Below are positions 22,064 through 27,280 of a DNA stretch of 64,000 bases, one piece after another. The stretch is from Bacteroidota bacterium (GTDB lineage: Bacteria; Bacteroidota; Bacteroidia; Flavobacteriales_D; Crocinitomicaceae), in assembly GCA_016192075.1 (NCBI GenBank), contig JACPUU010000005.1:1-64000 (forward strand). The letters are read 5' to 3'. The notes beneath the pieces were generated by a model. It had not been told where the DNA came from. It saw only the letters and a program-made list of their open reading frames with translations, and did not search any database. The translations under genes were made by a program, and so were the position numbers. Numbering within the stretch: the stretch's first letter is position 1; each line of letters starts with the position of its first letter.

Positions 22064-22747
22064 ATGAAATCCATTCTCCTTCTCCACGGTGCTTTGGGCG
22101 CCAAATCACAGCTTGAACCTTTGAAGAAACTCCTTCAATCAACGTTTGATGTTCATACACTCAATTTTGAAGGCCATGGTGACAGATCCACTGAAAAGGC
22201 ATATTCGATGGATTTATTTGCGCAAAATCTGAAAGATTACCTTGATCAGCACAAGCTAAAAAACATTTTGGTTTTTGGATACAGCATGGGAGGTTATGTG
22301 GCACTGAAACTGGCACAAAAGCATCCGGCGTATTTTGAAAAAATTATTACACTCGGTACTAAGTTTAACTGGACACCGGAATCAGCTGCTGCAGAAGTAA
22401 AAATGCTGGATGCCACTAAAATCCAGGAAAAAGTTCCGGCATTTGCACAGGCCCTTTCAACATTACATACCGCAATTGATTGGAAAATCGTACTGCAAAA
22501 AACCGCCGCTATGATGCTTGACCTTGGAAATGGAAAAGCCATGGCAGATACTGATTTCAGTGCTATTCAGACAACATGTTACATTGGAGTGGGTGACCGT
22601 GATGCCATGGTAAGCCGTGAAGAAACAGAACACGTTGCGGGTTTAATTCCAAATGCGTCTTTTTACCTGCTGGAGAATACGATTCACCCTATTGATAAAT
22701 TGGATTTTGAACGCGTGGTTAAATTGATTGAAGAAAAAACCCCCTAA
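22064..22747 (+). CDS. Alpha/beta hydrolase
   Basis: 227 residues. Start LLLHGALGAKSQ, nucleophile S74 in FGYSMGG, probable acid D in GVGDRDAM (about 193) and His in LENTIHPI (about 209) complete the triad. Single-domain cytoplasmic hydrolase of the small esterase or thioesterase type; the substrate cannot be told. The stop codon lies inside a 15-bp perfect hairpin (22740-22775), so the last residues (KTP) are encoded by the repeat element and the original C-terminus may have been replaced. Confidence 0.85.
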   Translation: MKSILLLHGALGAKSQLEPLKKLLQSTFDVHTLNFEGHGDRSTEKAYSMDLFAQNLKDYLDQHKLKNILVFGYSMGGYVALKLAQKHPAYFEKIITLGTKFNWTPESAAAEVKMLDATKIQEKVPAFAQALSTLHTAIDWKIVLQKTAAMMLDLGNGKAMADTDFSAIQTTCYIGVGDRDAMVSREETEHVAGLIPNASFYLLENTIHPIDKLDFERVVKLIEEKTP

Positions 22748-22775
22748 CCCGGGACTTAAATCCCGGGTTAGGGGG
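22740..22775. repeat. REP-like perfect hairpin at hydrolase 3' end
   Basis: CCCCCTAACCCGGGA and TCCCGGGTTAGGGGG form a perfect 15-bp stem with a CTTAAA loop. It has no T-run (GTGCAATTTTG follows). A weaker hairpin (TGCCC / GGGCA, 22805-22823) lies 30 bp further on, so the convergent gap holds a two-hairpin unit. The GC-rich CCCGGG core resembles palindromic intergenic repeats moved by REP-associated transposases; copy number cannot be assessed here. Confidence 0.6.
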
Positions 22776-22827: not shown

Positions 22828-24024
22828 CTATAATTTGAAGGAGATAGGCAACACCATTTCCACATTAACCGGTTTGCCATTTTTTTCACCCGGAATCCAG
22901 TCTGGCATAGCTGATACAACACGCAACGCTTCGTTGTCAAGGTCAGTATGAACACCTCTTTTTACACTGCATTTGGAAATTTTTCCGGTTGATTCAACCA
23001 CGAACGAAATATACACGCTGCCTTCAACCTTATTCTCTTGTGCTGATTTTGGATAGACTATGTTTGTGCCCAGGTAGTTGATCAACGCTTCTTGCCCGCC
23101 TTTAAATTCCGGCATTTTTTCAACGTCGTTTTCAATAAGCCGGTTTGTACCTGACACTGCGTTCAGTTGTGGACTGTGTTCATCCATGGTCCACGAAATT
23201 AAGGCAAAAGCACCTGCTACGAGTGGAAGTGCTAGGGCAAAGGCCCATCTGTTTTTTGTTTTTGTTTTCATACAATGTAGTCGTTTAATCAGTTTGTTTT
23301 TAGCATAAAACTGATTGGTTAATAAATCAGGGTTTGAATTGGTTCCAAGTGAATAAGCCAACAAAAATTCCATATAGCCGGTATGGTGTTTGTTGTACAT
23401 GATCTGGTCCACTTCGAATTCGTGAACGTCAATCAGTTCTTTTTTGAGCAGTATCATGCAAGGGTTAAACCAGCAGAAGCTTTGCATAATTTCAATGGCC
23501 AGAATATCGAAGCTGTGCCTTTTGGCAAAATGAATTTGTTCGTGCTGCAAAATCACCTCTTGCTCGCTGGCTGACAAAGCGGGATTCAACTGCACATAAT
23601 TTAAAAATGAAAAGCAGGTTTCATTTTCAATGCGCACAATTCTGAGGCCCTGGCTATGTTCGGCTTTTACCCTTCTTAACTTAATCAGGATACGGGTTAC
23701 CCTCAAAATCAGGAAAAGGAGTACACTGCCAACCCCCAACCAATAAATCTGCATTAAGGTCGGGTAGAACAAATGGGTATCTGGCGTGGTTTGGGCAGAT
23801 ACTGTGACGGCATCCAACACATAAACAGGCACATGATAAACTGCCGCCTGCAGATTCAGGCTGCTGAATTTAAATGCAAACACCATAAGCACCAATGCCG
23901 GCGCACCAAGCAATGCATACCGGCGTTGCACAAACGAAAGCTGGTTGCGGATCAGAAAATAAAGAATGGTCAGCAGCACCAACAAAACATTGGCTTCGAG
24001 TATATACAGGAGTATACTATCCAT
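22828..24024 (-). CDS. BlaR1-like M56 metallopeptidase fused to a TonB C-terminal domain
   Basis: 398 residues. Three membrane segments in the first 115 residues, then a cytoplasmic zinc-metallopeptidase with HEQIH (161-165) and a further membrane helix (about 260-280). After it, a periplasmic linker and a TonB-type C-terminal domain (IVYPKSAQENKVEGSVYISFVV...) run to the end. M56/BlaR1 proteins sense an envelope signal and cleave the partner BlaI-type repressor. The TonB domain replaces the penicillin-binding sensor of BlaR1. It overlaps the upstream blaI-like gene by 8 bp, so both are made together. Confidence 0.9.
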   Translation of the reverse strand: MDSILLYILEANVLLVLLTILYFLIRNQLSFVQRRYALLGAPALVLMVFAFKFSSLNLQAAVYHVPVYVLDAVTVSAQTTPDTHLFYPTLMQIYWLGVGSVLLFLILRVTRILIKLRRVKAEHSQGLRIVRIENETCFSFLNYVQLNPALSASEQEVILQHEQIHFAKRHSFDILAIEIMQSFCWFNPCMILLKKELIDVHEFEVDQIMYNKHHTGYMEFLLAYSLGTNSNPDLLTNQFYAKNKLIKRLHCMKTKTKNRWAFALALPLVAGAFALISWTMDEHSPQLNAVSGTNRLIENDVEKMPEFKGGQEALINYLGTNIVYPKSAQENKVEGSVYISFVVESTGKISKCSVKRGVHTDLDNEALRVVSAMPDWIPGEKNGKPVNVEMVLPISFKL

Positions 24025-24403
24025 TTTTTTCTTTTTTAATGAGTTTAATTACCTGGTCCAGTTCGTTCAGGTCCATTTTGTTTTCTTTCAGAAAGAAAGA
24101 CAACAGCTGGGTGCTTGAATTGTTGAAGTAATTTTTTTTAAGTGAGTTCAAACGCTGTGATGAATAGGCTTCACGACTGATGGTTGGTGCATATTCGTTG
24201 GATTTTCCATACGTGGTATAGGTCACAAAGCCTTTCTCGCAGAGCACGCGAATGACTGTAAGTACGGTATTGTAGGCCGGCTTAGGATCTTTCAATTGAT
24301 CGTGAATGTCTTTGGCAAACCCTTTACCAATGTTCCAGATGGCCTGCATGATTTGCTCTTCAGCTTTGGTGAGTTCCTTGTTTGGTTCTGTTTTACGTTT
24401 CAT
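24017..24403 (-). CDS. BlaI/MecI-family transcriptional repressor
   Basis: 128 residues. Winged-helix domain at residues about 10-80 (LTKAEEQIMQAIW, YNTVLTVIRVLCEKGFV, YAPTIS), then a helical dimerisation tail. Such repressors bind palindromes in their own promoter and are inactivated by proteolysis by the M56 partner, which is encoded next and overlaps by 8 bp. The promoter upstream has TTG-N20-TACATTTG with a perfect 16-bp palindrome in the spacer, consistent with autorepression. Target genes beyond this operon are not evident. Confidence 0.92.
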   Translation of the reverse strand: MKRKTEPNKELTKAEEQIMQAIWNIGKGFAKDIHDQLKDPKPAYNTVLTVIRVLCEKGFVTYTTYGKSNEYAPTISREAYSSQRLNSLKKNYFNNSSTQLLSFFLKENKMDLNELDQVIKLIKKEKNG

Positions 24404-24422
24404 AATTCCGGTTTGACAAAAA

Positions 24423-24453
24423 CAAATGTATAACTATATTTATAAATATACAA
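24423..24453 (-). promoter_or_regulatory. blaI-like gene promoter (TTG-N20-TACATTTG)
   Basis: On the minus strand, -33 TTG (24451-24453) and -7 TACATTTG (24423-24430) are separated by 20 bp, an ideal Bacteroidota promoter. Predicted transcript start near 24416, 13 nt before the ATG at 24403. Confidence 0.75.
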
Positions 24454-24467
24454 CTATTTTTATAAAT
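24433..24467. promoter_or_regulatory. BlaI-type operator: perfect palindrome plus tandem copy
   Basis: TATATTTATAAATATA (24435-24450) is a perfect 16-bp palindrome filling the promoter spacer. The word ACTATnTTTATAAAT occurs at 24433 and again at 24453, a 20-bp step, giving a second, imperfect site just upstream. Repressor binding here would block RNA polymerase. Binding by the BlaI-like protein is inferred from position. Confidence 0.65.
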
Positions 24468-24549: not shown

Positions 24550-24954
24550 TTACCTGCAATTCATACAAACGCCTGAGCCTTGTATTTCAAGTTGCTTTAT
24601 TTTGAATTTCGGATATTTTATTTGTGGAAAATGATCAAGTTCCAGGCAAAAAATTTCGTTGCAATTATCGCACTTAAAATGTAAATGCTGGTGGTGGTGT
24701 TCATGATCGTGTGAGGCGCATTCATCTTTACACAAGGCCATTTTTTTGATGTCGCCCGGCATGACAATTTCATGAATAAGGCCATTTTCAATAAATGTTT
24801 TCAAGGTCCGGTAAAGCGTAATCCGGTCAAATGTTTCCAGGTTGTTTTCAATCTGGCTTAAATCGATGGCGTTTTTGTATTTCCCGAAAACTTCAAGTAC
24901 ACTCACCCTAAAAGGGGTAACCCGCAAATTTCTGGATCGTAATAAATTTTCCAT
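24550..24954 (-). CDS. Fur-family metalloregulator (possibly Zur-like)
   Basis: 134 residues from the ATG at 24954; the TTG at 24966 is less likely. N-terminal winged helix (LRVTPFRVSVLEVF, DRITLYRTLKTFIENGLIHEI), a His-rich hinge (ASHDHEHHHQHLHFKC), and two CxxC pairs (CDNC and CMNC) forming the structural zinc site. The family represses metal-uptake genes when its metal is bound. The divergent neighbour is a TonB-dependent receptor and a 9-bp dyad lies between them, so it probably controls the receptor and itself. Zinc is the favoured metal on context, but iron or another metal is not excluded. Confidence 0.88.
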   Translation of the reverse strand: MENLLRSRNLRVTPFRVSVLEVFGKYKNAIDLSQIENNLETFDRITLYRTLKTFIENGLIHEIVMPGDIKKMALCKDECASHDHEHHHQHLHFKCDNCNEIFCLELDHFPQIKYPKFKIKQLEIQGSGVCMNCR

Positions 24955-24971
24955 TTCTAAATGCAACAGTA

Positions 24972-24995
24972 TTGCAAATAGTTTTATATTTGCAA
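24972..24995. promoter_or_regulatory. Dyad operator between Fur-like gene and TonB receptor
   Basis: TTGCAAATA-N6-TATTTGCAA, a perfect 9-bp inverted repeat that overlaps the receptor -7 element. A further TGCAA-N5-TTGCA dyad (24962-24976) lies toward the regulator gene. The position suits repression of both genes by the Fur-family protein. Confidence 0.6.
24985..24992 (+). promoter_or_regulatory. -7 promoter element of TonB receptor gene (TATATTTG)
   Basis: An exact TAnnTTTG only five bases before the ATG at 24998, so the transcript would be leaderless or start translation at the next in-frame ATG (25007). Confidence 0.55.
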
Positions 24996-24997
24996 CA

Positions 24998-27280
24998 ATG
25001 TTTCAAATGTACAAACTTATTTTCAAATATACAGCGGGGCTGTTAATGATACTATGGCCGGCTTCAGCACTGACACAAACGCTTACCGGTACAGTATTAA
25101 ATACTGAAAACGGTCAGCCAGTGCCGTACGCCACCATTTATGTAATAGAACTTTCGTCGGGTACATTGACTGACAGCCTTGGCAATTTCAAAATCACCAA
25201 TTTCCCTTCATCACCGGTAACGCTGAAAGTTTCGGCGGTAGGGTTCAACACGGCTCAGACTATTATTACGGGCGGCGCATCTGAAAATAAATTGCAGATC
25301 AGCCTTGAACCGGCACATGTGCATCTGGATGAGGTAGTGGTTTCAGCACCCTTTGGCAGGTTACAGCATGAAAATGTAACCAATGTGGAAATACGGCGGT
25401 TAAATGATCTCAACCGCATACCGGCTACTACATTAAGTGAAGCCATTTCAACCATTCCGGGGGTTTACCAGAGCAGTACCGGAAACGGCATTGGCAAACC
25501 GGTTATTCGCGGCCTTTCCGGAACAAGAGTAGTTACCTACCTGAACGGTTTGCGAATTGAAAACCAGCAATGGGGAGATGATCATGGTATGGGTGTTACC
25601 GCAGTTGGTATTGAAAGTGTAGAAGTAATCAAAGGGCCTGCCTCTCTTTTGTATGGTTCCGATGCCTTGGGGGGTGTTTTGTATTTTGTCAACCAGTCCT
25701 ATTCAAAACTGAACCGGTTTGAAGGGTATTTTCAGACAAAGTTTGAAACAAATGCGCTGGGTGTTACCAGTGAGTTAGGCCTGAAGTGGAATAAAAACGG
25801 ATTTAAATTCAACGTTTTTGCGGGGCAAACCAACCAGGCAGATTATCTTTTACCCAACGGGTATCGTATACAAAACTCGCGGTTTTCAAATACCACACTA
25901 AAAAGTTCAGTGGGCTACAACAAAAAAAACTGGGTAGGCAATCTGCATTATTCGTTTATTCAAAATTACATTGGCATACCGGGAGAGACAGAAGAAGACA
26001 GTATTTACCCGGCACTTTTTTATACCAATGCCGTTACCTGGAGTAAAGGATTGCCTTTTCAAAATGTTACCAATCACTATGTGTCACTTGAAAATAAATT
26101 TTTCTTTTCAAACAGTGAGTTGGAATTTATTGTGGGAAACACCAATAATCACCTGCAGGAACTGGAAGAGAGTTTTACCTTGCCGGGGCTGAATTTAAAA
26201 CTGAATAACAGTACTTATACACTTCGTTATACCATATCGCTGCTAAAAAAACTGGAGGCCATTGTGGGTAGCCAGGGAATGTACCAGGTTAATCAAAATG
26301 GTGCAAACGCAGCGGAAATTCTGATTCCCGACAACCGATCATTTGACGCCGGTTTATATGCGGTGCTTCAGCTGGAATTGCAGAAATGGACTTTTCAGGG
26401 AGGTGCCCGTTTTGACAACCGGAAAATTGCAACCCAGGCTGATTTTAATGGCTTTGAGATTTTTGACCGGTCTTACCAGAGCTATAATTATTCAGCCGGA
26501 TTTGTTTTCAGAAATGATTCAACGGTTTTCAGGTTTAATCTTTCATCCGGCTTTAGGGCTCCGCATACATCTGAACTTTTGTCGAACGGGGTTCATCCCG
26601 GAACCTACCGGTATAACCTGGGCGATCCGGATTTAAGAACAGAGAATGCCACGCAGGCTGATTTTTCAATAGGGGTACATTACGATCACCTGGAACTGGT
26701 GTTTAACCCGTTTTTCAACCAGATAAACAATTACATCTACCTGAACCCGACCGACTCGGTAATCAATGGCTACCAGGTTTTCAAATACTCACAAACCGGC
26801 AAAGCCCAGCTTTTTGGTGGTGATTTAACGCTGCACATACACCCTCATTTTGCACACTGGATTCATTTACAAACCGCATTTTCATACATCTACGGACAGG
26901 ATGAAACCGGTAAAGCACTCCCGTTTATTCCACAGGCACGCATTAACTCACAATTAAAATTTGAATTGCCTGGCAGCCGTAGGTTCAGAATCACAGATGT
27001 AGTTGTGCAGCACAGTTTTTATTTTGGCCAAAACCGGGTAGGGCTGTTTGAAACACCTACAGATGCCTATCATTTGTTTCACCTGGGTATGAATCTTTCC
27101 ATTCACACCAAAGGCAACCCGGTGTTGTTGAACTGTGGTGTCAGAAATGCGCTTAACACAACCTATTTTGACCACCTGTCAAGTCTTAAACAAATCGGGT
27201 TGCCGTTTCCGGGAATTAACGGATACATAAGTTTAAAGTACACCTTTGAACGTAAACTGAAAGAAAAAGCGGAGAGATGA
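24998..27280 (+). CDS. TonB-dependent receptor, possible zinc/metal receptor
   Basis: About 760 residues. Signal peptide ending ASALTQ, then a CarboxypepD_reg-like beta domain (about 30-110: GTVLNTENGQPVPYATIYV), a plug domain (LDEVVVSAPFG, RGLSGTRVVTYLNGLR, SVEVIKGPASLLYGSDALGGV) and a 22-strand-type barrel ending ISLKYTFE. It would import a metal complex across the outer membrane using TonB/ExbBD energy. The divergent Fur-family gene and the shared dyad suggest metal control; the QQWGDDHGMG plug segment is reminiscent of ZnuD-type receptors, a weak hint at zinc. The ATG at 24998 or 25007 is chosen because an upstream extension would overlap the regulator gene and its operator. Confidence 0.88.
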   Translation: MFQMYKLIFKYTAGLLMILWPASALTQTLTGTVLNTENGQPVPYATIYVIELSSGTLTDSLGNFKITNFPSSPVTLKVSAVGFNTAQTIITGGASENKLQISLEPAHVHLDEVVVSAPFGRLQHENVTNVEIRRLNDLNRIPATTLSEAISTIPGVYQSSTGNGIGKPVIRGLSGTRVVTYLNGLRIENQQWGDDHGMGVTAVGIESVEVIKGPASLLYGSDALGGVLYFVNQSYSKLNRFEGYFQTKFETNALGVTSELGLKWNKNGFKFNVFAGQTNQADYLLPNGYRIQNSRFSNTTLKSSVGYNKKNWVGNLHYSFIQNYIGIPGETEEDSIYPALFYTNAVTWSKGLPFQNVTNHYVSLENKFFFSNSELEFIVGNTNNHLQELEESFTLPGLNLKLNNSTYTLRYTISLLKKLEAIVGSQGMYQVNQNGANAAEILIPDNRSFDAGLYAVLQLELQKWTFQGGARFDNRKIATQADFNGFEIFDRSYQSYNYSAGFVFRNDSTVFRFNLSSGFRAPHTSELLSNGVHPGTYRYNLGDPDLRTENATQADFSIGVHYDHLELVFNPFFNQINNYIYLNPTDSVINGYQVFKYSQTGKAQLFGGDLTLHIHPHFAHWIHLQTAFSYIYGQDETGKALPFIPQARINSQLKFELPGSRRFRITDVVVQHSFYFGQNRVGLFETPTDAYHLFHLGMNLSIHTKGNPVLLNCGVRNALNTTYFDHLSSLKQIGLPFPGINGYISLKYTFERKLKEKAER

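Follow-up and report, generated by a model that had tools for sequence, protein, structure and literature searches.

A BlaI–M56 gene pair with a TonB-type C-terminal domain and predicted paired operator dyads in a Bacteroidota promoter

The window analysed here, 64,000 nucleotides from a Crocinitomicaceae genome (Fluviicola, Crocinitomix; 4.65 Mb in 22 contigs), carries on its minus strand a BlaI/MecI/CopY-type repressor gene, blaI (24017..24403, 128 aa), followed by m56-tonB (22828..24024), which encodes an M56 protease with a TonB C-terminal domain (TonB_C). The two genes overlap by 8 bp (24017–24024), with blaI first, and an M56 gene lies directly 3′ of blaI in all 20 family loci that were fetched. 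A hairpin resembling an intrinsic terminator stands 3′ of m56-tonB on the same strand (22740..22775; 16 pairs, 11 of them G–C, then TTTTTT); it has the strongest stem of the four such sites in the region, a count that is not enriched over shuffled sequence (3.1). No conserved third gene was seen in the operon across the 20 family loci, and both a penicillin-binding domain and a beta-lactamase gene are absent from it. The whole genome encodes two PF03965 proteins and one PF05569 protein above the cut-off. The blaI–m56 layout is common across Bacteroidota and is a variant of the known BlaI/BlaR1-type system.

The repressor belongs to the BlaI/MecI/CopY family by its score against the Penicillinase_R winged-helix profile PF03965 (102.2 bits; cut-off 22.6), and it gives a profile match to MecI (1okr, E = 1.4e-7) as well as to BlaI structures. 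Five of its residues, S102, F103, F104, K106 and E107 (S-F-F-x-K-E), are invariant in the 13 aligned sequences. In the profile alignment, residues N101–F102 of MecI, the MecI cut site, fall on F103–F104, the predicted scissile bond of the window's BlaI. The second product rises barely above the cut-off for M56 (PF05569, 32.2 bits; cut-off 31) and well above that for TonB_C (PF03544, 66.8 bits; cut-off 24.6), so that all three domain assignments behind the BlaI/M56–TonB pair proposed in an earlier note, made on this DNA from the sequence alone, hold at family cut-offs.

Hydropathy predicts four membrane segments in the protease (residues 3–21, 38–56, 96–114 and 262–280), and the catalytic columns of the family place its zinc site, HEQIH, at residues 161–165. 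As in the BlaR1/MecR1 antirepressors, an M56 domain with HExxH lies between membrane segments and its gene is joined to blaI. The C-terminal penicillin-binding sensor domain of BlaR1 and MecR1 is missing from the window protein, and TonB_C (residues 321–398) is found there. Profile comparison matches residues 13–321 to S. aureus BlaR1 (8exp, E = 5.3e-11) and the C-terminus to TonB (5lw8, E = 5.3e-8). An AlphaFold2 model built from 16 sequences is of moderate quality (pLDDT 75.7, pTM 0.58); in Foldseek searches it matched BlaR1 (8exq, 2.0e-4), with a whole-chain superposition rmsd of 20.6, and TonB (6i97, 4.8e-4), with an rmsd of 2.0. The replacement of the beta-lactam sensor by a TonB C-terminal domain, also put forward in the earlier note, is thus upheld by Pfam family, profile match and structural neighbour alike.

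Alignment A3 joins the window protein to 77 of 80 partner proteases. Left out were L098 (cut reading frame), L112 (1211 aa; scanned apart, it contains M56 and four TonB_C domains) and L163, whose called ORF lacks HExxH and whose TonB_C scores 19.6 bits, below the cut-off. H161, E162, H165, E202 and D206 are identical in all 78 aligned proteases. TonB_C was recognized in 70 of the 78 by Pfam and in 73 by a family-built model, which finds one to four copies per protein; the domain is therefore a conserved feature of proteases paired with other blaI genes, a point that the earlier note had proposed to check. According to Pfam, 23 of the 78 contain a TonB-receptor Plug domain, and two have an M23 peptidase domain in the TonB_C position. 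Fusions in the order M56–TonB_C–Plug, for example L101 and L107, combine a TonB domain and a receptor plug domain on one protease, and the proteases of L150 and L160, whose genes adjoin blaI, terminate in an M23 peptidase domain where others have TonB_C.

Upstream of blaI, the minus strand carries the promoter already described in the earlier note, TTG-TATATTTATAAATATAGTTA-TACATTTG with a spacer of 20, which fits the Bacteroidota −33/−7 consensus. Upstream regions of orthologs share, as their conserved element, two AACTA-N6-TAGTT dyads set 20 bp apart; at the level of sequence pattern this gives BlaI two inverted-repeat operators 5′ of its own operon. The window has degenerate copies of both on the minus strand, a distal dyad ATTTATAAAAATAGTT (24452..24467) and a proximal dyad ATTTATAAATATAGTT (24432..24447) within the promoter spacer, each matching 8/10 positions and each with ATTTA as its left half. 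Dyads and promoter interlock: the −33 TTG (24451..24453) overlaps the distal dyad, being in part within its TAGTTG, and a single base separates the end of the proximal dyad from the −7 element TACATTTG (24423..24430), which was placed by sequence and by its register in relatives.

Conservation was assessed in two overlapping sets of upstream regions, with several contigs common to both. The named set began with 80 loci, ten of which had no ATG found, leaving 70; removing nine from the Fluviicola/Crocinitomix group left 61, one of which (L114) nevertheless corresponds to a family genome, G003. The family set comprised 30 loci, reduced to 29 for dyad and anchored counts since L028 has too little sequence. 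AACTA-N6-TAGTT reaches at least 9/10 in 58 of the 70 named upstreams (shuffles, 1.4%); other gaps from 0 to 14 do so in at most 16 of the 70, which favours a gap of 6. TAGTT words stand 20 bp apart in 40/70 named and 18/30 family upstreams. An anchored score combining two dyads 20 bp apart with TAnnTTTG (maximum 26, threshold 19) was at least 19 in 48 of the 61 named loci outside the Fluviicola/Crocinitomix group (shuffles, 0.2%), with 13 below the threshold, and in 29/29 family loci (shuffles, 1.0%). The window itself scores 22 (8, 8 and 6).

The earlier note had placed the operator in a different register within the spacer, in a perfect 16-bp palindrome lying exactly between the two promoter elements. 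This palindrome, TATATTTATAAATATA (24435..24450, minus strand), is indeed perfect and is the only one of its length in the 64-kb window. Dinucleotide shuffles of the whole window contain on average 1.45 (20 shuffles), but only 16 of 2,000 shuffles of the 146-bp intergenic stretch contain one; at least one such palindrome is therefore to be expected in a sequence of 64 kb, but not in the intergenic stretch. It is real, but as a palindrome it is modest evidence. It abuts the TTG, but four base pairs (GTTA) remain between it and TACATTTG, and the slot is filled by the proximal dyad, from whose conserved register the palindrome's centre is displaced by 3 bp. The repeated word ACTATnTTTATAAAT to which the note also pointed does occur twice, 20 bp apart, the second word being the second operator copy. 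The observation was thus largely real, with the operator read in the wrong register.

The family operator could still be TATATTTATAAATATA, centred on TTTA|TAAA and with its own repressor register, a reading that we consider improbable. Its perfection in the window speaks for it, as do its presence in 13/29 family relatives and a gap-0 reading that is high in the family at 9/10 (24/29, beside 14/29 for gap 6, which is found in 29/29 at 8/10). However, 12 of those 13 relatives carry the palindrome in the distal unit, 20 bp further upstream, and only one (L023) has it in the spacer; moreover, both 16-mer copies of the window fall into the AACTA-N6-TAGTT register, and as a palindrome the distal copy is imperfect. 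The earlier note had made its interpretation depend on conservation of the palindrome upstream of orthologous blaI genes, and there it fails, with 0/61 named loci outside the Fluviicola/Crocinitomix group containing it. As a conserved operator the palindrome is ruled out, and the AACTA-N6-TAGTT pair occupies the same slots.

Because the dyad pattern was read off these same upstream sequences, a genome search blind to blaI provides an independent test. Of 395 genomes from the phylum, 40 contain the exact dyad pair, and the reversed control matches none. These matches fall in 41 distinct places, 30 of which were fetched and examined; 28 of the 30 lie upstream of blaI, 15–116 bp before the blaI match, a near-exclusive position. 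The remaining two precede genes that, judging from their protein starts, are presumably an ABC permease and a ribonuclease-G-like protein, the latter a self-complementary case. When the −7 element was added to the exact pair, 198 genomes yielded ten matches (control, 0), nine of them before blaI. Neither the pair nor the pair plus −7 is matched exactly in the genome of the window, because the operator copy there is degenerate. One locus, L189 (= L175; op at 1501), has a perfect pair with −7 before an ABC-permease-like gene and no blaI within 3 kb, and is a possible true target other than blaI.

Searching for operator-like sites elsewhere, which the earlier note had recommended as a route to the regulon, led back to the same operon. 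In the 4.65-Mb genome, the strict word WWYTAWWWWWWTAGTTRT occurs twice, both times at blaI (control, 2), and the looser searches were unenriched: TAGTTRTANNTTTG with at most one mismatch gave 70 matches against 121 in the control, and tandem TAGTT gave 5 against 39. Two of the five matches to TTTATAAATATA are the blaI site. A further three sites match TAGTTRTANNTTTG exactly, including one ahead of a DtxR/MntR-like gene, but were rejected as targets for want of a tandem partner at 20 bp. Neither the strict word nor looser half-sites revealed target genes beyond the blaI operon in this genome, and the blaI–m56 operon is the only target that we predict with confidence. On contig C19 around 131434 (L002 1492–1815) the genome also has an orphan short blaI, which lacks an M56 gene nearby but has relatives in many genomes of the family. 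A 9/10 AACTA-N6-TAGTT dyad ends right before its ATG, but cross-regulation was discarded because no more than 3 of the 21 orphan loci, this one included, reach 9/10 anywhere upstream (shuffles, 1.7%).

We interpret the locus as an autoregulated proteolytic switch of the BlaI/BlaR1 type with a TonB-like sensor, a reading to which we assign a probability of about 0.78; the gene pair, its domains and catalytic residues, and the dyad pair with its conservation and position come directly from the computations, whereas repression, cleavage, topology and signal gating are what we infer. Two BlaI dimers would bind side by side on the AACTA-N6-TAGTT-type dyads, 20 bp or about two helical turns apart, the distal dimer covering the −33 TTG and the proximal dimer filling the spacer and touching the −7 element. 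With BlaI on both dyads, RNA polymerase would therefore be kept off and blaI–m56 repressed. The M56 domain would face the cytoplasm between the third and fourth membrane segments and would be activated when the periplasmic TonB_C meets its signal. Once active, it would cut BlaI in the conserved S-F-F-x-K-E stretch; the membrane protease probably destroys the repressor in this way. Derepression of the operon would then supply more protease and more repressor, making a response that is fast on and self-resetting. A weak M56 profile score is what might be expected if the second protein were mainly TonB-like or structural, with an inactive protease part, and BlaI were a conventional repressor. We regard this as highly improbable, given that the zinc-site residues are unvaried in 78/78 aligned proteases (L163, with no HExxH in its called ORF, is outside the alignment) and that blaI and the protease gene are joined in 20/20 family loci.

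Within the proteolytic switch, what TonB_C senses may be sought at either face of the periplasm. By contacting TonB-dependent receptors or competing with TonB, it could make the protease report an outer-membrane or energised-transport state, which is possible but on balance unlikely. The domain is complete, and its best structural neighbours are TonB domains solved with receptors (FoxA–TonB, 6i97, at the rmsd of 2.0); a Plug domain occurs in 23/78 partner proteases, and in the window a hemin-type receptor gene and a Fur-family gene adjoin blaI. However, the linker from the membrane to TonB_C in the window protein is about 23 residues (281–303), with two prolines in 281–310, rather than the long, often Pro-rich periplasmic linker of TonB energy transducers; it is short for crossing the periplasm and speaks against direct outer-membrane contact by this protein. 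Across 73 proteins the distance from the last membrane segment to the first domain ranges between 30 and 141 residues, so members with long linkers could reach the outer membrane. The membrane histidine of TonB, according to a rule from Proteobacteria, is required for ExbB/ExbD coupling; in the segment before TonB_C the window protein has none, and only 4/78 have one, at the segment edge. Receptor and Fur genes adjoin blaI in only 2/20 family loci, and a functional link between blaI and this neighbourhood was rejected on that count. Transcript data from other Bacteroidota may also fit an outer-membrane link: qPCR showed a 3.09-fold rise of a BlaI-family gene in a mutant of Riemerella with a changed LPS pattern (PMC5294843), where the likeness is at the level of the BlaI family, and excess hemin lowered the expression of a BlaI-family gene of P. 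gingivalis that adjoins an M56 gene (log2 change −1.74; PMC10470040), where it is at the level of the gene families.

Alternatively, TonB_C could be a peptidoglycan or cell-wall sensor near the inner membrane, so that the cell-wall role of BlaR1 would be kept with a different reader domain; this we hold to be rather doubtful. TonB C-terminal domains bind peptidoglycan, the short linker of the window protein suits such a position, and in 2/78 partners an M23 peptidase domain, from a cell-wall hydrolase family, takes the place of TonB_C. BlaI systems of other phyla respond to cell-wall attack (PMC8457756). Set against this, the operon has no penicillin-binding domain or beta-lactamase gene. Broader and quite speculative is the idea of a phylum-wide Bacteroidota switch for envelope surveillance, in which TonB_C gates a BlaI-destroying protease and paired operators lie in the −33/−7 promoter, so that Ton-dependent import would be reported by repressor proteolysis and not by a sigma/anti-sigma relay; the Plug domain after TonB_C in some members could then be a built-in pseudo-ligand. 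Should TonB_C indeed report on import or on cell-wall state, proteolytic switches of the BlaI/BlaR1 kind would thereby gain a new input. For a regulator pair common in Bacteroidota, a phylum with poorly mapped transcription control, the dyad pair offers a concrete and testable operator and promoter layout, and the question of which DNA BlaI binds can now be treated separately from that of what TonB_C senses. Beside blaI, at 24550–25000, a Fur/Zur-like gene (minus strand) and a hemin/ZnuD-like TonB-dependent receptor gene (plus strand) lie back to back, and recurring words of the TTGCAA type (GCAACAGTATTGCAAA, ATTTGCAACAATG) in the gap between them resemble the site of a metal regulator.

Several parts of this arrangement have precedents. 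Chu, Peacock and Vogel reportedly noted in 2007 TonB family members extended at the N-terminus by a MecR1-like region and are said not to have described an operator or regulon; like those proteins, the window protease joins a MecR1-like part to TonB. With BlaI–BlaR1 and MecI–MecR1 of S. aureus the window shares a repressor and an M56 antirepressor protease in one operon, structures of both being matched by profile; unlike theirs, its operon is free of PBP and beta-lactamase genes, its protease ends in TonB_C where theirs bears a beta-lactam-binding domain, and its half-sites are AACTA/TAGTT with a 6-bp gap, compared with the TACA/TGTA given in PMC7253601. Similar half-sites are found in Clostridium thermocellum, for which PMC8457756 reports GTCTAT five bases apart and GACTAT for BlaI_0696 and BlaI_1845, two inverted-repeat pairs with ACTAT half-sites for four protomers, and regulons that, counting each repressor's own operon, comprise three operons and one. 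A half-site of the same kind and a double operator before the own operon are thus common to both systems; the C. thermocellum partners, however, are assumed to be beta-lactam BlaR1 proteins and no Bacteroidota −33/−7 promoter is involved, and the window dyad differs in its gap of 6. CopR/CopY likewise has two operators before the repressor's own operon, the distal one proposed to block the −35 and the proximal one RNA polymerase, but its operator is RNYKACANNTGTMRNY, mostly 24–39 bases apart, and it is metal-controlled and without a protease (PMC7253601). Double operators before BlaI/CopY operons and MecR1–TonB fusions are therefore already known. We found no description of an AACTA-N6-TAGTT pair threaded into a Bacteroidota promoter in the open-licence literature searched, and as far as that literature shows, the dyad pair within the promoter is the new part.

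Some loci depart from the common layout. L158, a metagenome-assembled record filed under Candidatus Aminicenantes, combines a blaI–M56 pair with two perfect dyads at a distance of 20 bp, and its protease fragment shows no TonB_C; transfer or mis-binning could account for it. In L053 (6761–9562) and L095, both of Crocinitomix type, blaI is followed by two tandem M56 genes, the first with a decayed TonB_C. In Sphingobacterium, a predicted lipoprotein gene is a common third gene directly 3′ of the M56 gene, found in 11 named loci (L102, L105, L111, L115, L118, L128, L130, L140, L154, L164 and L167), which suggests lineage-specific outputs.
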